Assembly: GCA_938044775.1 (NCBI GenBank)
Contig: CALIOE010000025.1
Span: 1-41,731 of the forward strand
Direction of reading: 5' to 3'
Origin: an uncultured Rhizobiaceae group bacterium
GTDB lineage: Bacteria; Pseudomonadota; Alphaproteobacteria; Rhizobiales; Rhizobiaceae
DNA: 41,731 nt
This document shows, piece by piece, positions 21,991 to 31,257 of this stretch. Every line of letters begins with the position of its first letter. Position 1 is the stretch's first letter. The notes below the pieces were generated by a model. That model did not search any database and was not told where the DNA came from. It saw only the letters and a list, made by a program, of their open reading frames with translations. The position numbers and the translations under genes are program-made.

Positions 21991-22938
21991 TTACTCCGCC
22001 GGTACCAACGCTGCATCGCCACCATAGTATAATCCCACCGCGTGGCGTGCGGTCGCGAAGAAAAGCCAGCGTTCCACCAACAGGCCCAGCATGTGGGTTA
22101 TGAGAGCAACAAAGGAAAAGAACGTCAGCGCTGCGGGCGCCGCAAGTGCCAGAGCAAGGCAAACCGCCGGCAACACCAGGCCGAGCAGGACGCAAATCTT
22201 CCACAAGAGATTCATATGCCTGCGAGCCACCCTGAATGCCATTTCATTGGTCAGGTAGTTTCCCATGGCATGCGGGCGTTCAAGCAAGCGAACCTTGCCG
22301 ATGTGGCCGAGGCCTGTCGCGCTTTCCATGGTGGACTTGCCGTAGCCAACGCTTGCTGCGTTCTGCACCCACATAAATTTAAACACCCAGGCAGCAATCA
22401 GGATGCCCAGGGCAACAATCGTCCAAACGTCGGTCCGCCCCTCTTCAAGAGGTTTGCGAAACAGACCGACATAGGCGAGCGTGCCCGATGAGAGCGAGAA
22501 ACCAAGATATGTCGCAATGGTCCAACCGCTGTGCCACTGCGGAATTGTGCGCAGAGAATTATAGATCTTGGCTGTGCAGTAGACCGTAACCGCCGCCATG
22601 ATGCCGCCGACATAGCCCAGCGCCAGATTGAATGAATCGCCGAAGATGCTCATGGCCGCCAGCAAAGTCAGCGGAATGAAGGTCAATACCGCCATAACCC
22701 CTTCGCGCGAGAGCCAACTGGACCGCCATTGCGAGAAAGCACGCCAGGCGCGCTGCGGATTGCCCAGATGCAGCGTTGAGCACAGCAGGCCAATGGAAAT
22801 AAGAGTCAGAGCCAGGAACCATGCAATTTTGGTCGAAGTAGCGGCCGGATTGCCATGGCCGAGGGCGAGGACGAAAGCGAGCCCGTATCCAAGACCGGAA
22901 AGTGTCGTGAACGCGATAACAGAAGCTGCTGGATGCAT
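21991..22938 (-). CDS. soeC: SoeC, DmsC-type membrane anchor of a sulfite dehydrogenase
   Basis: 315 residues with about eight membrane segments and the DmsC family layout (N-terminal HPAASVIAFTTLSGLGYGL, central LLCSTLHLGNPQRAWRAF, C-terminal LVERWLFFATARH). In SoeABC this subunit anchors the complex in the inner membrane and passes electrons to quinone. The start overlaps the soeB stop (TAATG), with GGAG as ribosome site. The location after xsc, tauE and soeB argues for SoeC over a DMSO reductase anchor. The catalytic subunit is missing from the locus. Confidence 0.85.
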   Translation of the reverse strand: MHPAASVIAFTTLSGLGYGLAFVLALGHGNPAATSTKIAWFLALTLISIGLLCSTLHLGNPQRAWRAFSQWRSSWLSREGVMAVLTFIPLTLLAAMSIFGDSFNLALGYVGGIMAAVTVYCTAKIYNSLRTIPQWHSGWTIATYLGFSLSSGTLAYVGLFRKPLEEGRTDVWTIVALGILIAAWVFKFMWVQNAASVGYGKSTMESATGLGHIGKVRLLERPHAMGNYLTNEMAFRVARRHMNLLWKICVLLGLVLPAVCLALALAAPAALTFFSFVALITHMLGLLVERWLFFATARHAVGLYYGGDAALVPAE

Positions 22939-23717
22939 TATTTGGCTCCTTTTCCGTCGAGGGTGCCAAGCGCACGGTCAATCCAGCCCAACAGACCCTC
23001 TGCTGCGACAGATTCTTCCTCTGATTCAGGCGGAGCGGAATTTGCCCCCAGTTCGGTGCGTTCACGCGGCGGCAGGTATTTGTTGACCGGCTTGTTCCCT
23101 TGTTCAGGCATCAGGTCAAAGCCACCACGTTCTTTGACCAGCACTGAGACATCAGATTGAGGATCGGCCAGATCGCCGAAATGGCGTGCACCTGCCGGAC
23201 ATGTTTTCACGCAGGCCGGTTGCCGATCGATCTCTTCGAGCTCCTCATTGTAGATTCGGTCAACGCACAGTGTGCATTTCTTCATCACGCCTTCCGCCAG
23301 ATCCATCTCCCGGGCGCCATAGGCGCAGGACCAGGCGCAGAGTCCACAGCCAATGCACTTCTCTTCATCCACCAGCACAATACCGTCGGATTGCCGCTTG
23401 TACGAGGCCCCTGTCGGGCAAACGGTGACACAGGGTGCGTCTTCGCAATGCAAACAGGATTTTGGGAAATGTACCACCCGCGCGTCGCCAGCTGTGCCTA
23501 TCACCTCCCCATCCGGGATGACTTCAAATGTATGGATTCTGTTGAGCCACGACCCTGCTGGGTTAGCACCGTAGGGATCCTGATCTGAGAGTGCGGTGCC
23601 GTAACCTGAGGTATTCCATTCCTTACAGGCCACCACGCAGGCATGGCAGCCAACGCAGGTATCGAGGTCGATGACCAGACCGAGTTTCTTGTCTGTGGAA
23701 GCTGGAAGCGATGTCAT
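22938..23717 (-). CDS. soeB: SoeB, four-cluster iron-sulfur subunit of a sulfite dehydrogenase
   Basis: 259 residues with 16 cluster cysteines in four sets: CVGCHACVVAC, CLHCEDAPCVTVC, CIGCGLCAWSC, and CTLC plus CVKTC. This is the DmsB/PsrB-type electron-transfer subunit. Its neighbours (xsc, tauE, soeC) match sulfite dehydrogenase loci, where SoeB carries electrons from the molybdenum subunit SoeA to SoeC. All cysteines are intact, so the protein is not visibly decaying although soeA is. A C-terminal tail rich in Glu and Pro extends beyond the last cluster. Confidence 0.87.
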   Translation of the reverse strand: MTSLPASTDKKLGLVIDLDTCVGCHACVVACKEWNTSGYGTALSDQDPYGANPAGSWLNRIHTFEVIPDGEVIGTAGDARVVHFPKSCLHCEDAPCVTVCPTGASYKRQSDGIVLVDEEKCIGCGLCAWSCAYGAREMDLAEGVMKKCTLCVDRIYNEELEEIDRQPACVKTCPAGARHFGDLADPQSDVSVLVKERGGFDLMPEQGNKPVNKYLPPRERTELGANSAPPESEEESVAAEGLLGWIDRALGTLDGKGAK

Positions 23718-23721
23718 CTGG

Positions 23722-23892
23722 TCAACTCCGGTCCGGGATGCAGGAGTTGTATACGGTTTCGCATCGAATCCGCTCAGCGAACTTACCTGACTTCAAATTG
23801 ACATTGTTTCCTGAGCGCAGGGCACGCATGTAGCAAGTTGTCCGGCGTTTCTCGCCTACAGGTTTGGGCAGGCCCAGTACCGGATCAGCCAT
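23722..23892 (-). pseudogene. soeA: Remnant of soeA, the molybdopterin catalytic subunit gene
   Basis: A 56-codon frame from an ATG at 23892, with GAGGAG twelve to fourteen bases upstream, to a TGA four bases before soeB. Its first 37 codons align with the start of SoeA-type molybdopterin oxidoreductases: PKPVGEKRRTTCYM then R-A-L-R-S-GNNVNLKSGK, where intact proteins have a CYMCACRCGINVHLKDGK-type 4Fe-4S site. The first Cys is kept; the next three cluster cysteines are now Arg, Leu and Ser. The remaining roughly 900 codons of a normal soeA are absent. Either a decayed remnant after internal deletion, or a short peptide still translated to keep soeB coupled. Confidence 0.7.
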
Positions 23893-23916
23893 ATCAATTT
23901 TTACTCCTCAAATTGA

Positions 23917-24693
23917 CTATGCGATTGCCATTCTCATCAGCCCGATTGCAGCCAGAAATATCAGCAGGCCAAGGCAAAACGGCCTGTAGTAAGGTTGCAG
24001 ACGCGGACGGAACAAGGCTTGACCTGCCAGAACTCCAGCCATGCAAAACGGTATCCAGGCCAGGCCTCGTGTGACGGCCCGCGGTGTAAGCATACCGTAT
24101 AAGTAGAGGTAGATCAGGCTGCTGAGCGAACTGCCGAACAGGAACAGAACAAGAGATGCCCGCATGACCGGCGGGGGCGCATCGCGCGCAAGTACATATA
24201 GCGCAACCACCATGCCGCCGACGGACGCAAGCCCGGAGACGGTACCGGCAAGAATACCCGCTGCGTAGAGCCCGGAATTGGTTGCCAAAAAAGTCGCACG
24301 TACCTTCAGCAATTGCAGAAAAGCGAGCGCCAATATGACAATCAACGCGATTGCCTTGCTCGTCTCTACCGGAAGCGTGTTGGTGAGATACAAACCTATG
24401 GGTCCGCCTATTGCCGAGCCGACGACCAGTCCGATGACTACTTTCCAGTTGGCCTGCTTGACGCCACCACGGACCATCAACAGGCTTGCCGACATTTCGA
24501 GAAACCAGCAGATCACGATCAGCTCGATCGGTGGAATGAAGAGGACGAGGCTGGCCATAACCAGTGCCGACAGGGCAAAGCCGGAAAATCCGCGCACCAT
24601 CCCCGCGACGAAGATCACCATCACGCAGATTGCGAACTCCGTTCCGGTCAGCCCAGCCGTGTCCAGCAGGTAAGCCAAATGTTTCGGCACCAA
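23917..24693 (-). CDS. tauE: TauE/SafE-family sulfite (sulfonate) exporter
   Basis: 258 residues, seven or eight membrane segments, TauE/SafE family, with the repeated GxxRGFSGFALSALVMA-type motif (here MVRGFSGFALSALVMA) in the first half and SGLASVGGMVVALYVLAR in the second. It is predicted to export sulfite released by Xsc. The start is a TTG at 24693 or a GTG at 24690; neither has a clear ribosome site, and a strong hairpin lies just upstream. It lies between xsc and the soe genes on the same strand, so one operon is likely. Confidence 0.88.
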   Translation of the reverse strand: MVPKHLAYLLDTAGLTGTEFAICVMVIFVAGMVRGFSGFALSALVMASLVLFIPPIELIVICWFLEMSASLLMVRGGVKQANWKVVIGLVVGSAIGGPIGLYLTNTLPVETSKAIALIVILALAFLQLLKVRATFLATNSGLYAAGILAGTVSGLASVGGMVVALYVLARDAPPPVMRASLVLFLFGSSLSSLIYLYLYGMLTPRAVTRGLAWIPFCMAGVLAGQALFRPRLQPYYRPFCLGLLIFLAAIGLMRMAIA

Positions 24694-24767: not shown

Positions 24768-26549
24768 CTAGACACCGACCTGCGGGCGCATATCGTCAGC
24801 GTTGATGCCTGCCACAGCGACGGGCTTTTTCATCGCATCGCGGCGGAAGGGTTCACCCAGTTCCTGATTCAGCAAAACCTCGATGAATGTGGTCTCACCG
24901 TTTTTCATCTGAGCTTCAATGGCTTTGTCGAGTTCCGCACTCAATTCGTCCATAGTGATGACCTGAACACCCTTGACGCCACATGCCTGTGCGATCTTCG
25001 AATAGTCCACGTCCATGTCGAGTTCTGTGCCAACAAAGTTGTCTTCAAACCACAGTGTGGTGTTGCGCTTTTCCGCGCCCCACTGGTAGTTGCGGAAGAT
25101 CACCATAGTGATGGCTGGCCAGTCGTCGCGGCCAACGGCCGTCATCTCGTTCATGGAAATACCGAATGCGCCATCGCCGGCAAATCCAACCACTGGTGTA
25201 TCTGGCTGGCCCATCTTCGCTCCAACGATCGCCGGGAAGCCATAGCCACAGGGGCCGAACAGGCCGGGTGCGAGGTATTTACGACCAACTTCGAAGGTCG
25301 GATAGGCATTGCCAATGGCACAATTGTTACCGATGTCGGAAGAAATGATGGCTTCCTTGGGAAGAACCTTCTGGATCGCGCGCCATGCCATGCGCGGCGA
25401 CATCTTTTGTGGTTCACGATCCCGCGAACGCTCATTCCAGTTTGTACCCGGATCGTCGTCCTCGTGATCCATCGAAGAAAGCGTCTGCAGCCAGGCCGAC
25501 TTCGTCTGTGAAATCATGCCTTCGCGCTCTTTCAACTCGTCAGAACTGGCAGCAGGAGAAACTTTGGCGAGAAGCTGCTCTGCCACTTTCTTTGCATCAC
25601 CCTGAATTCCGACCGAGACAGGCTTAGTGAGACCAATGCGATCTGCGTTAATGTCGACCTGGATCAGCTTGGCGTCCTTGGGCCAATAGTCGATGCCGTA
25701 TCCTGGAAGGGTCGAAAACGGGTTGAGACGGGTTCCAAGCGCCAGAACAACATCAGCTTTCGAGATGAGTTCCATCGCCGCCTTGGAGCCGTTATAGCCG
25801 AGGGGGCCGACGGACAATTTGTGACTGCCAGGGAACGCATCGTTGTGCTGATAATTGCAGCAAACCGGAGCTGACAATGCTTCAGCCAGTTTGGCTGAAG
25901 CGTCGATGGCGCCGCCGATAACGACACCGGCGCCATTCAAAATGACCGGAAATTTCGCATTTGAAAGCAGATCGGCAGCCCGGCTTATGGCCTCCTGGCC
26001 GCCCGACGGCAGTTCAAACTCAACGATCTGCGGCAATTCGATATCGACCACTTGTGTCCAGTAATCGCGCGGGATGTTGATCTGGGCCGGACCGCAGCCG
26101 CGCCAGGCCTTGGAGATTACCCGGTTCAGAACTTCCGCCATACGTGATGGGTCACGGACCTCTTCCTGATAACAGACCATGTCTTCGAACAGCTTCATCT
26201 GTTCGATTTCCTGAAATCCGCCCTGCCCGATCGTTTTGTTGGCCGCCTGGGGTGTGACCAGCAGCAAAGGTGTGTGGTTCCAGAATGCTGTTTTGACCGG
26301 CGTTACGAAGTTGGTAATTCCCGGGCCGTTCTGGGCGACCATCATCGACATCTTGCCGGTGGAACGTGTAAAGCCGTCGGCCATCATACCGGCGTTGCAT
26401 TCATGGGCGCAGTCATAAAACTTGATGCCCGCCTGCGGAAACAGGTCAGAAATCGGCATCATTGCCGACCCTATGATACCAAAAGCGTGGTCAATTCCGT
26501 GCATCTGAAGCACTTTTACGAAGGCTTCCTCGGTGGTCATCTTTGTCAT
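24768..26549 (-). CDS. xsc: Sulfoacetaldehyde acetyltransferase
   Basis: 593 residues from the ATG at 26549, which has GAGG seven bases upstream; an ATG at 26555 is too close to it. Thiamine-diphosphate enzyme: N-terminal domain FGIIGSAMMPISDLFPQAG with the Glu-containing HECNAGMMADG, and C-terminal ThDP site GDGAFGISMNEMTAVGR with NYQWGAEKRN. The long KTIGQGGFQEIEQM stretch is diagnostic for Xsc. It converts sulfoacetaldehyde and phosphate to acetyl phosphate and sulfite in taurine/sulfonate catabolism. First gene of xsc-tauE-(soeA remnant)-soeB-soeC. No tpa, pta or tau transporter genes lie in the window. Confidence 0.95.
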   Translation of the reverse strand: MTKMTTEEAFVKVLQMHGIDHAFGIIGSAMMPISDLFPQAGIKFYDCAHECNAGMMADGFTRSTGKMSMMVAQNGPGITNFVTPVKTAFWNHTPLLLVTPQAANKTIGQGGFQEIEQMKLFEDMVCYQEEVRDPSRMAEVLNRVISKAWRGCGPAQINIPRDYWTQVVDIELPQIVEFELPSGGQEAISRAADLLSNAKFPVILNGAGVVIGGAIDASAKLAEALSAPVCCNYQHNDAFPGSHKLSVGPLGYNGSKAAMELISKADVVLALGTRLNPFSTLPGYGIDYWPKDAKLIQVDINADRIGLTKPVSVGIQGDAKKVAEQLLAKVSPAASSDELKEREGMISQTKSAWLQTLSSMDHEDDDPGTNWNERSRDREPQKMSPRMAWRAIQKVLPKEAIISSDIGNNCAIGNAYPTFEVGRKYLAPGLFGPCGYGFPAIVGAKMGQPDTPVVGFAGDGAFGISMNEMTAVGRDDWPAITMVIFRNYQWGAEKRNTTLWFEDNFVGTELDMDVDYSKIAQACGVKGVQVITMDELSAELDKAIEAQMKNGETTFIEVLLNQELGEPFRRDAMKKPVAVAGINADDMRPQVGV

Positions 26550-26576
26550 GGTCATTCCTCAAATCTGCCAAAAAAC

Positions 26577-27159: not shown

Positions 27160-28467
27160 TTAACTGGCGCCCGTGCTGGTCTGGATTTCAACACCCACAT
27201 CCTTGTCGGCTTTCTGCGCCGGACGAATGCTTCTAACCGTGATCATGCTGCCGGGGCGCCAGCTCGGCAGCGGCGCCGATGATGGCAATGGGAATGCCGC
27301 GCCGGGGCGCAGCTTTGGCAAAGAAGCTTTAGCTGTGCGGGTGGTTGCGTCATTGTCGACAAGCGAGATTCGTTCTGCAACCTGGCCAGGCCCAACCATG
27401 GCCGATCCGGCGCCCAAATAGGCAGTGACAAGCGTCGACACCGCCCGCAGATTTCCCGGCACATCAGGCTCTTGCGTGCGATCAGGCGACGGCTGGACCA
27501 GTGGCAGAACACCCGCCACAACGGGCGAACCTTCTGTTTCGACGGGTTTCGCTGGAAGCACAGGCACCTTTGCCGGCAAAAGCTGTTTGGCCGCGGCTAC
27601 CAATGGATTCGGGCTGGGTACAGCGAGCGGTCCGGGTTCGGGTTTCCGAGCGGTGAGTTCCGAAAATGGCCACGCTTTGCGGGCTGCATCGGGGCGCATG
27701 GCAATGACATTTACATCGATCCTGTGGTCAACCCCCTTCATTCGCCGAAGGCAACGCTTACGATTGCAATTCACCTGCGTTGAAAACTGCCACATTGTGT
27801 AGCTGTCCCAGTTTCCCATTGGAAAAGCGCCCTGCACTTCGCTGCGGTAGCGTGCATACCAGAGGTTCATACGGGCTAAAATCGGATACTTTTTTTTGTT
27901 TTGCGCAATGAACTTGGCGGTGGAATGGTTCGTGTACAGCAGGGGATAGCGCCCCAGCCGTCGATAGATAACCCGGGAGAACCGCTCCGCATCCTTGAGG
28001 GACATCCATTTCTTGGGGTCGTTATCCTCGATATCAAGCGCAATGAGATCGTCTTTTTCCGGCCGTGCAAAACTAAGGAAGTGGAGCGCCTGTCTGATTG
28101 GATTGCCGGGCCGCGCCAGATGGTAAGCCCCCCATTTCATTCCCATCTGCTTAGCAAGGCTCTTTCGCGTGTGATAAAGTTCCTTGGCGATCGAATAGCG
28201 GCGCCATGCCAAGCGGCAATACTTATCACTGCCCCGGCAACTGGCGGTTGGAGGCAATCCGTCCGAAGCTTTGTTCACAAAGCCGATAAGCCGCGTGTTT
28301 TCTCGAAGCTTGTTCCAGTTGATGGGCGTGTATTCGTAGGCATCAACAACAATCGACGAGTTGCTGCCATACCAAGGTCCCGAAAACTCCGAGGCCGCCC
28401 GGGCCGCTGAATGCGCGGCAAACCAAAGAAGCGCGAGACAGAGCACTCTTGTTCCAAACCGCAACAT
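27160..28467 (-). CDS. Secreted GH25-family muramidase (lysozyme)
   Basis: 435 residues from the ATG at 28467, with GAGGG about ten bases upstream; upstream extension to 28560 is not needed. Signal peptide at residues 1-24 (VLCLALLWFAAHSAARA). GH25 TIM barrel at about 35-240: first catalytic-site Asp in VVDAYEYTPINW, KASDG, GAYHLARPG, the Asp-x-Glu pair in LIALDIEDND, and YTMWQFST at the end. These enzymes cut the glycan of peptidoglycan. The last 190 residues are a Pro/Ala-rich low-complexity tail without a recognised binding domain. It sits between xsc and tauR without obvious link to them. Confidence 0.88.
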   Translation of the reverse strand: MLRFGTRVLCLALLWFAAHSAARAASEFSGPWYGSNSSIVVDAYEYTPINWNKLRENTRLIGFVNKASDGLPPTASCRGSDKYCRLAWRRYSIAKELYHTRKSLAKQMGMKWGAYHLARPGNPIRQALHFLSFARPEKDDLIALDIEDNDPKKWMSLKDAERFSRVIYRRLGRYPLLYTNHSTAKFIAQNKKKYPILARMNLWYARYRSEVQGAFPMGNWDSYTMWQFSTQVNCNRKRCLRRMKGVDHRIDVNVIAMRPDAARKAWPFSELTARKPEPGPLAVPSPNPLVAAAKQLLPAKVPVLPAKPVETEGSPVVAGVLPLVQPSPDRTQEPDVPGNLRAVSTLVTAYLGAGSAMVGPGQVAERISLVDNDATTRTAKASLPKLRPGAAFPLPSSAPLPSWRPGSMITVRSIRPAQKADKDVGVEIQTSTGAS

Positions 28468-28638
28468 AGTAATCAGCCCTCGACGGCCGGTGATTTTCCC
28501 GGCGCTTTGCACTTCAGGATGCGCAAACATGGTTATCAAAGACTTAACACTCATGGGCACCCGTTAAGCGGCTTAAAACTCGAACGGGCACAACCGCTAT
28601 GTCCCGATAGCTGTCGCATGGTGGTTAAGGTGGCCCGA

Positions 28639-30102
28639 TTATGCAAGCTTCGCGAGTTTCTCGATACCTGGATCGATGAGCTCGGATGATATCGAGGAGA
28701 AACCAAGCCTGAAGGACGACAGGTCATCGTCCTCTTGAAAGTAAACATTGCCGGGTTCGATGAATATGCCACTTTGCAGCGCTCTCTCCGCGAGCAGGTC
28801 GGTGTTGCAGCTGCCGGAATTCAGTGTGACCCAGTACGAAGATCCGCCCATTCCTCTTGTCGCTTTTGCTTCGGGAAAGTGTTGCGCGAGGGATCGGCCC
28901 ATTTGAGTCCAGCGGTTGCGATAGGCGCGTTGAAGACGCCGAACGAACACATCGTAGTGACCAAGCGAAAGAAAAAATGCTGTGCTGCGCTGGTTGTTGG
29001 TTGGAGGGTGGCGCACCATCAGGCGCCGCAGGGCGCGCATTTCTGCAACGAGCTCTTGCGGCGCGACGACGAAACCCAGCCTCAAGCCGGGGAAAAGGGT
29101 CTTCGAAAAACTTCCCACATAAATGACCCTGCCGTCCTGATCGAGCGACTTGAGCGCCGGGAGCGGCTTGCCCATGTAGTTGGTTTCCAGTTCATAGTCG
29201 TCTTCAACGATCAAAAAGTCGTTTTTTTCCGCTGACTCCAATAGCGCGCGCCTCCGTTCTGTCGGCATCGTTACGGTGGTCGGCAACTGATGACTGGGAG
29301 TCGTGTAGACTATATCGGCGGTTGCAAGCCGGTCATCGACCGGCAGTCCGTCGCTATCAACCCGTACGGCACTGATGTTTTGGGTCCGCAAAGCAAAGAT
29401 GTTGCGCGCATCTGCATAGCCGGGATCCTCGACCACCACCCTGGTTCCTTGCTCCACCAGCAGGCTGGCGACCAGGTAAAGGGCCTGCTGTGCGCCCAGT
29501 GTGACCAGTATCTGACTGTCACCGACAAGAATTCCGCGGCGCGGTAAAATGCGCGTGCGAATCTGGTCAACGAGCATCGGGTCGTCGTTGTCCAGCGTGT
29601 CCTGGCTCCAGGCATCGAGCCATTTCTTGCCCATAGCCTTGTAGACGCAATCGCGCCAGTCAGTGATGGGAAACAATGACTGATCCGGCTGCCCGTAGAT
29701 GAATGGATAGGGCAAAGACTGCCAGTCGCGCACCTTGGAAATGTTGCGCTGTCGGCTCGGACGCTTGAACAGCCGGCTCTCCCAGTCGACCGAGCTCGCT
29801 GCGTCTGAGAGCGGATCCGGCATTTCAGCGGCACTGTGGACGCCCATTTCAATGACCGTCTCGTTGACGAAATAGCCGGAGCGCTCCGAGGTGCGCAGAT
29901 ATCCGTCGTCGGTCAGCCCCTGATACACCAGCACCGCCGTATTGCGGGAGATGCCAAGCTGGTGCGACAAATGTCGCGTGGACGGCAGTTTCTCACCCGG
30001 CTTCATGTGTCCGGCCAGAATAGCCGATACCAGCACTTCACGCAGCTGTGCCTGAAGGCTCTTCGGTGAACTGCGATCCAGGGTCATCAAAAAATCGCGC
30101 AT
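28639..30102 (-). CDS. tauR: MocR-type PLP-dependent transcriptional regulator, probable TauR
   Basis: 487 residues. N-terminal GntR winged helix (GEKLPSTRHLSHQLGISRNT) and a C-terminal aminotransferase-like domain with the PLP lysine in VYVGSFSKTLFPGLRLGF-type sequence (here GSFSKTLFPGLRLGF), VEDPGYADAR and VEDDYELETNY. In Rhodobacter TauR activates taurine genes. The nearby xsc operon and the CTGGAC repeats in its own promoter support TauR. GabR and other MocR members are the alternatives. The gene is separated from xsc by two unrelated genes. Confidence 0.8.
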   Translation of the reverse strand: MRDFLMTLDRSSPKSLQAQLREVLVSAILAGHMKPGEKLPSTRHLSHQLGISRNTAVLVYQGLTDDGYLRTSERSGYFVNETVIEMGVHSAAEMPDPLSDAASSVDWESRLFKRPSRQRNISKVRDWQSLPYPFIYGQPDQSLFPITDWRDCVYKAMGKKWLDAWSQDTLDNDDPMLVDQIRTRILPRRGILVGDSQILVTLGAQQALYLVASLLVEQGTRVVVEDPGYADARNIFALRTQNISAVRVDSDGLPVDDRLATADIVYTTPSHQLPTTVTMPTERRRALLESAEKNDFLIVEDDYELETNYMGKPLPALKSLDQDGRVIYVGSFSKTLFPGLRLGFVVAPQELVAEMRALRRLMVRHPPTNNQRSTAFFLSLGHYDVFVRRLQRAYRNRWTQMGRSLAQHFPEAKATRGMGGSSYWVTLNSGSCNTDLLAERALQSGIFIEPGNVYFQEDDDLSSFRLGFSSISSELIDPGIEKLAKLA

Positions 30103-30249: not shown

Positions 30250-31257
30250 ATGAGCCCATTACCAAACATGATCGATCCGTTTGGCCGTCACGTGGAATAT
30301 CTACGCGTTTCGGTGACGGACCGCTGTGACTTCCGCTGTGTGTACTGCATGGCTGAAGACATGACATTTCTCCCCAAGCGAGATCTCCTGACTCTCGAAG
30401 AACTGGACCGCCTGTGCTCGGCCTTTGTCGACAAGGGTGTTCGCAAGCTGCGCTTAACCGGCGGCGAACCACTCGTCCGCAAAAACATCATGACGCTGTT
30501 CCAGTCGCTGTCTCGACACCTTGTATCCGGCGCTCTGCAGGAACTCACGCTCACGACCAACGGTTCACAGCTGGCGAAATACGCGCAACAGCTGGCCGAT
30601 TGCGGTGTCGAGCGCGTCAATGTCTCTATCGACACTCTTGACCATGACAAGTTTCACAAGATCACCCGCTGGGGCCAGCTCGGCAAAGTAATGGAGGGAC
30701 TCGAAGCTGCCCGAAAGGCTGGTCTCGCTGTCAAAATTAATGCGGTAGCCCTGAAGGGTGTCAACGAGCACGAAATCGACTCGATGATGAACTGGGCTCA
30801 TGGAGAAGGTTTCGACCTGACGCTGATCGAAACCATGCCGCTGGGCGAAATCGAGGAAGACCGAACGGATCAGTATCTGCCGCTCAGCCTCGTTCGCAGA
30901 CGGCTGGAAGAGAAATACACGCTGACCGAAATCCCCTACAAGACCGGGGGGCCGGCCCGTTATCTGGAAGTTGCTGAAACCGGAGGACGGCTGGGACTGA
31001 TCACGCCGCTGACACATAATTTTTGCGAAAGCTGCAACCGCGTAAGGGTAACCTGCACCGGTACTCTTTATATGTGCCTTGGGCAGGATGACGCTGCAGA
31101 TCTGCGCACGCCGTTGCGTGCATCGGAATCCAATGATGAAATATACGCCGCCATCGATGAAGCCATTGGCCGCAAGCCAAAGGGCCATGATTTCGTTATC
31201 GAGCGACAAGGCGAAAAGGCAGCCGTCGGTCGGCACATGAGCGTCACCGGAGGTTAG
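30250..31257 (+). CDS. moaA: GTP 3',8-cyclase MoaA
   Basis: 335 residues. Radical-SAM cluster site CDFRCVYC (C-x3-C-x2-C) near residue 26, the SAM-binding [13 protein letters not shown], the second cluster in [13 protein letters not shown], and the C-terminal GG tail (MSVTGG) needed for activity. It makes the first molybdopterin intermediate from GTP. Start ATG at 30250, with a GG-poor upstream. It stands alone, divergent from tauR. The window also contains the ghost of a molybdenum enzyme (soeA), but housekeeping demand for Moco explains moaA well enough. Confidence 0.96.

Follow-up and report, generated by a model that had tools for sequence, protein, structure and literature searches.

Within the window, by which we mean the whole stretch of 41,731 nucleotides that was analysed, a taurine/sulfite operon has kept soeB and soeC intact and its native soeA has been reduced to a scar; very probably, a full-length paralog encoded elsewhere in the same genome, hereafter SoeA2, has taken over in trans and completes a SoeA2BC enzyme together with the operon-borne SoeB and SoeC. 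In this genome (G000), the locus is organized as follows:

21991..22938, minus strand: soeC (315 aa), DmsC-like membrane subunit (PF04976, E 2e-16)
22938..23717, minus strand: soeB (259 aa), 16 cysteines in four [4Fe-4S]-type motifs
23718..23735, minus strand: 3' scar, the last soeA codons, containing the GGAG-N8-ATG of soeB
23722..23892, minus strand: soeA relic, a 56-codon frame (23725-23892) plus stop codon (23722-23724)
23904..23908, minus strand: ribosome-binding-like site AGGAG derived from the native soeA, aligning with GGGAG in the related genome G011
23917..24693, minus strand: tauE/safE sulfite exporter gene (Pfam PF01925, E 1.3e-19)
24768..26555, minus strand: xsc, sulfite-producing sulfoacetaldehyde acetyltransferase (TIGR03457, E 2.8e-281)

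The frame at 23725-23892 on the minus strand is what decay has left of the 5' end of native soeA, the bulk of the gene having been deleted. Its translation aligned significantly to SoeA N-termini from the same genus, for which 15 genomes were available (59% over residues 1-41, E 3.5e-9 and 4.0e-9), whereas a Pfam search with the 56-residue peptide gave no hit up to E 0.1. At the DNA level, homology to G011 soeA extends from the ribosome-binding site to ∼130 bases inside the gene, with a local score of 144.5 compared to a maximum of 77.5 among 500 mononucleotide shuffles. These results bear out the first-pass annotation, which had recognized the frame as the ghost of a soeA gene in a taurine/sulfite operon. 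Moreover, the relic reads PVG-EK, as native operon-borne SoeA does, without the additional residue that every one of the six SoeA2 carries (PIGDE, for instance), and is therefore a remnant of the native, operon-borne soeA. An intact homologue occupies the same place in relatives and the copy in G000 is disabled by deletion, as expected of a pseudogene: soeA measures ∼2850 bases in intact relatives as compared to 175 bases from the relic start to soeB here, so that ∼2.7 kb are gone.

It had further been suggested that three of the four N-terminal cluster cysteines were changed to Arg, Leu and Ser. When the cluster ligands are assigned by alignment to Thermus PsrA (C20, C23, C27 and C60, G011 numbering), C20 is kept and the changes to Arg (C23) and Ser (C27) do affect ligands, but the change to Leu falls on C25, to which no PsrA cysteine corresponds, and C60 lies within the deleted part. 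At the opposite end, a spacer of four bases (CCAG) separates the relic frame from the soeB ATG at 23717. The 3' scar matches G003 at 14 of 18 bases in a fixed register (by-eye count); this similarity is not significant by shuffling (36.0 versus a shuffle maximum of 53.0), and the scar is assigned by its fixed position only.

As had been noted before, soeB retains all 16 cluster cysteines, a number shared by the 14 genus genomes that have soeB, and soeC is full length. No second close SoeB was found in G000, the next best match being 35% with partial protein coverage. Among the intact loci that were fetched, the order xsc-tauE-soeA-soeB-soeC was observed in five of seven, with tauE undetected in G009 and xsc undetected in G007. 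Further upstream, the window contains moaA, a molybdenum-cofactor gene (30250-31257, plus strand, TIGR02666 above cut-off, ∼3.7 kb upstream of xsc), and a MocR-like regulator (28639-30102, minus strand, NF052282 above cut-off), which is possibly a TauR-type regulator of the xsc-tauE-soeBC operon. A glycosyl hydrolase family 25 protein (27160-28560, minus strand, PF01183) is encoded between this regulator and xsc.

The relic is the only soeA next to soeB in G000. The previous conclusion that the catalytic subunit had been lost thus holds for the locus but not for the genome, since a genome-wide search retrieved a full-length SoeA (SoeA2) on contig C59, 74% identical to the operon-borne SoeA of G011. 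SoeA2 of G000 has a cysteine at each of the nine positions where the seven operon-borne SoeA proteins of the genus (SoeA1) invariably have one, and of the 646 columns without variation in SoeA1, 556 are identical across all six SoeA2. Constraint on SoeA2 is also apparent in the G002-G004 comparison (dN 0.045, dS 1.33).

On C59, which ends ∼290 bases past soeA2, the gene is divergent from aprM-aprB-aprA, beyond which come two small genes, sat and what is presumably a phosphodiesterase-like gene. AprA, AprB and Sat scored above curated cut-offs (TIGR02061, TIGR02060 and NF003166, respectively). The gene that we take to be aprM is so named from its position, and its product had no hit in Pfam at E 1e-5 or in NCBIfam at 1e-10. 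This placement is conserved: in all six genomes with soeA2, aprM, aprB and aprA adjoin it and soeA2 is divergent from aprM. The apr genes are followed by sat in five of the six; in G002 sat was not found, and no ORF of at least 90 residues lies beyond aprA on that contig. In G013, minus-strand ORFs resembling an IS element by eye are present ∼2-3 kb after soeA2, and in G002 a related minus-strand ORF lies from 18 bases past the soeA2 end.

Across the genus, soeB is present in 14 of 15 genomes and absent from G014 (0.9 Mb). A full-length soeA adjoins it in seven (G001, G003, G005, G007, G009, G010 and G011), and G012, in which the last 226 soeA codons are found at a contig end, was counted as intact on that fragment. 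The remaining six (G000, G002, G004, G006, G008 and G013), hereafter split genomes, carry only scars at soeB and have soeA2 elsewhere, and all of them keep soeB and soeC. Exactly these six also have aprM, which was not found in the eight genomes with soeA adjoining soeB; as G012 is only 61% complete, the absence of soeA2 and aprM there is weak. Such a perfect split would arise with a chance of 1 in 3003 if labels were independent, a guide figure only, as the genomes are related. Linkage on one contig was seen in G013 only, where ∼1.5 Mb separates soeA2 from soeBC on a 4.45-Mb contig.

The scars have decayed to different degrees. Pieces of both soeA ends are left in G002 and the soeA 3' end in G004, whereas the G006 stretch is degenerate and sits where the contig ends, and almost nothing of soeA is left in G008 and G013. 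The GGAG-N8-ATG of soeB is exact in five of the six split genomes, the exception being G006, and in intact genomes it lies within the last soeA codons (five shown, GGGG in G005; all by eye). The soeA 3' end thus appears to linger without a coupling role, because it holds this element.

Despite the missing soeA in situ, soeB and soeC are under purifying selection in the split pair G002-G004 (dN/dS 0.033 and 0.045), akin to the intact pair G010-G011 (0.030 and 0.053); these values come from selected pairs, several others of which gave infinite dS. Of the three accounts offered by the first-pass annotation, very recent loss is accordingly unlikely as a general one, given this selection and the unequal decay of the scars in five related species, and recruitment of another molybdenum subunit fits best, with SoeA2 present in all six split genomes. 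For G000 itself the main caution is SoeC, its more diverged subunit, which is 63-70% identical to relatives, with dN/dS of 0.12-0.21 where dS was computable, values of little use since dS is saturated. In the combined SoeB+SoeC+Xsc tree, the G000 end branch (0.22, like that of G007) is the longest of the genus. Split and intact genomes are told apart by a single column in SoeB and by none in SoeC, and therefore no adaptation to a partner switch is visible.

In the main SoeA tree (49 rows, the family being represented by 20 sequences fetched from among 126 genomes with a match), SoeA2 forms one clade (100/100), genus SoeA1 another (100/99), and the two together a single clade (100/98) with respect to 36 other SoeA, among which 20 belong to the family and include the nearest genus by identity. 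The same grouping was obtained in an earlier tree with few family sequences (64 of 112 extracted sequences used, seven short-match loci omitted). Arrival of SoeA2 from another genus is thus unsupported, although an unsampled donor close to the genus is conceivable. The SoeA2 stem branch is long (0.19, compared to 0.11 for SoeA1), and SoeA2 could work with a partner other than SoeBC.

In both the SoeB+SoeC+Xsc and the RpoB tree the split genomes are scattered, the intact G003 grouping with G002 and G004. A single clade of split genomes was rejected for SoeB+SoeC+Xsc (p-AU 7.58e-9; Xsc available for 12 of 20 rows, and G006 and some others covering less than half of the columns) and for RpoB (p-AU 0.00215, with four of the six in the tree). 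Missing from the rpoB trees are G006, G008 and G012, for which no match was found, as well as G699 and G015 (split rpoB matches); the AU test also omits G695 (wrong frame, very long branch). As the split genomes do not form one clade, native soeA has been lost repeatedly, and a single ancestral loss is rejected by both tests. Well-supported branches of the SoeB+SoeC+Xsc tree force three label changes, in either direction, and by reading of the same tree there were at least four losses if soeA was never regained.

Between G002 and G006, aprA is 95.2% identical, as compared to 88.7% between the sisters G002 and G004, whereas soeB (78.1% versus 85.8%) and soeC (75.8% versus 87.1%) show the reverse order; aprM (81.4 and 80.9%) and soeA2 (82.2 and 82.3%) are about equal in the two comparisons. 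Because of this reversal, the apr-soeA2 block, or parts of it, may move between species, a moderate sign that is clear for aprA only. Early duplication followed by sorting is a serious alternative to such spread.

The unusual nature of the arrangement is evident from wider surveys, in which soeA and soeB were called adjacent when less than 2.5 kb separated them on the same contig. Among 297 genomes of the family (five from the genus), 124 have both genes above threshold and 121 of these have them as neighbours, the exceptions being G131 and G263, at contig edges, and G000. In the class (385 genomes), they are neighbours in 90 of 92 genomes with both, the exceptions being G420 (contig edge) and G000. 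Conversely, no soeA was found within ∼9 kb, or to the contig end, of 18 apr loci from other genera of the class (19 AprM matches outside G000, of which 18 were fetched, G500 lying at a contig edge), and we came across no description of soeA next to aprM in searches of open-licence papers. The nearest apr genes among the 18 are those of G593, from another family (L200, 9045-13317; aprA 89% and aprM 56% identical to G000), where the same two small genes follow aprA; aprM looks as if its history had been a different one. Two other loci, L208 (G603) and L209 (G513), carry aprMBA with xsc ∼4 kb away in genomes of 1.2-1.3 Mb, linking taurine and indirect sulfite oxidation in small genomes.

Several other readings of these data have to be considered. 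That the assembly collapsed an intact soeA, or that C59 is foreign to the bin, might be suspected in a draft genome of 168 contigs and 92.4% completeness, but is extremely unlikely: an assembly deletion is difficult to reconcile with a relic that has its own substitutions and with related scars in other assemblies (G002 and G004), and G013 carries soeA2 and soeBC on a single contig. It is also very unlikely that the 56-codon frame encodes a functional small protein or serves as a coupling leader. Its 56 open codons, its end four bases before soeB and the preserved ribosome-binding-like site of soeA would be in line with such a role, yet the frame is not conserved, the other five split genomes having different or almost no remnants, and what persists is the Shine-Dalgarno-like GGAG-N8-ATG of soeB. 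The earlier suggestion that the frame is kept for translational coupling is hence unneeded.

SoeA2 might act in the adjoining AprM/AprBA route, leaving SoeBC with another role or partner, a reading favoured by the position of soeA2, divergent from aprM with aprA and aprB alongside in six of six genomes, and by the proposal that AprM is an electron entry point into the membrane (PMC3779200). We consider it quite unlikely, as none of the 18 class apr loci has soeA nearby and Apr therefore does not generally need SoeA, soeB and soeC are kept in every soeA2 genome and constrained in the measurable pair, and G000 has no other close SoeB. Unlikely, too, is a shared catalytic subunit, in which SoeA2 would serve SoeBC and also dock on AprM or be co-regulated with AprBA/Sat, a mobile apr-soeA2 module taking control of the resident direct pathway at each arrival. 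A different matter is the history, which would leave SoeA2 function unchanged: with somewhat less than even chances, two soeA copies were already present in the genus ancestor and one or the other was retained in each lineage, with no repeated acquisition of a block. SoeA2 being sister to all seven genus SoeA1 with high support is what early duplication predicts, redundancy would also yield mutual exclusion, and the identities of aprM and soeA2 do not clearly point to transfer; against this stand the G002-G006 aprA identity, out of order relative to soeB and soeC, and the lack of detectable aprM in any SoeA1 genome.

Taken together, we favour a model of displacement in trans. The native soeA of the xsc-tauE-soeA-soeB-soeC operon has been deleted down to its scar, and its product would be replaced by SoeA2, a full-length paralog that is sister to genus SoeA and encoded beside APS-reductase and ATP-sulfurylase genes, and which most likely docks on SoeB and SoeC from the taurine operon. 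Xsc releases sulfite in the cytoplasm. The predicted SoeA2BC would oxidize this sulfite and pass the electrons to quinone, with the apr/sat genes providing a parallel route with ATP gain (PMC10356861). The same displacement would have occurred several times in the genus, possibly through spread of an apr-sat-soeA2 block between species. This would represent a repeated and scarred case in which one subunit of a three-subunit membrane enzyme is displaced in trans while its partner genes stay, and it would link direct sulfite oxidation (SoeABC) with the indirect route (Apr/Sat) at a single locus. Any annotation expecting soeA beside soeB would wrongly deny direct sulfite oxidation to these species.

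In PMC8076601 the SoeABC enzyme, known from Allochromatium vinosum and Aquifex aeolicus, is presented as a sulfite:quinone oxidoreductase whose catalytic subunits are believed to face the cytoplasm, and soeABC lies near taurine genes in Ruegeria pomeroyi (PMC8076601, PMC4334477). Similar to these systems, G000 has a SoeB with 16 cysteines, a DmsC/NrfD-like SoeC, the N-terminal cluster cysteines in SoeA2, and a locus with xsc and tauE; in contrast to them, its catalytic subunit gene lies away from soeBC, beside apr/sat, and the native soeA is a scar. With respect to the sat-aprMBA operon of indirect, AMP-dependent sulfite oxidation, seen in A. vinosum (PMC3779200), G000 likewise combines aprM, aprB, aprA and sat in one cluster, but has a divergent soeA2 adjoining aprM, a feature absent from the 18 other class loci. 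Finally, a taurine-to-sulfate route through Xsc and then AprAB/Sat is described for the sponge symbiont Ca. Taurinisymbion and for SAR11 (PMC10356861). G000 resembles these organisms in having Xsc and apr/sat genes within one genome and differs from them in also keeping soeBC, with SoeA encoded in the apr cluster.
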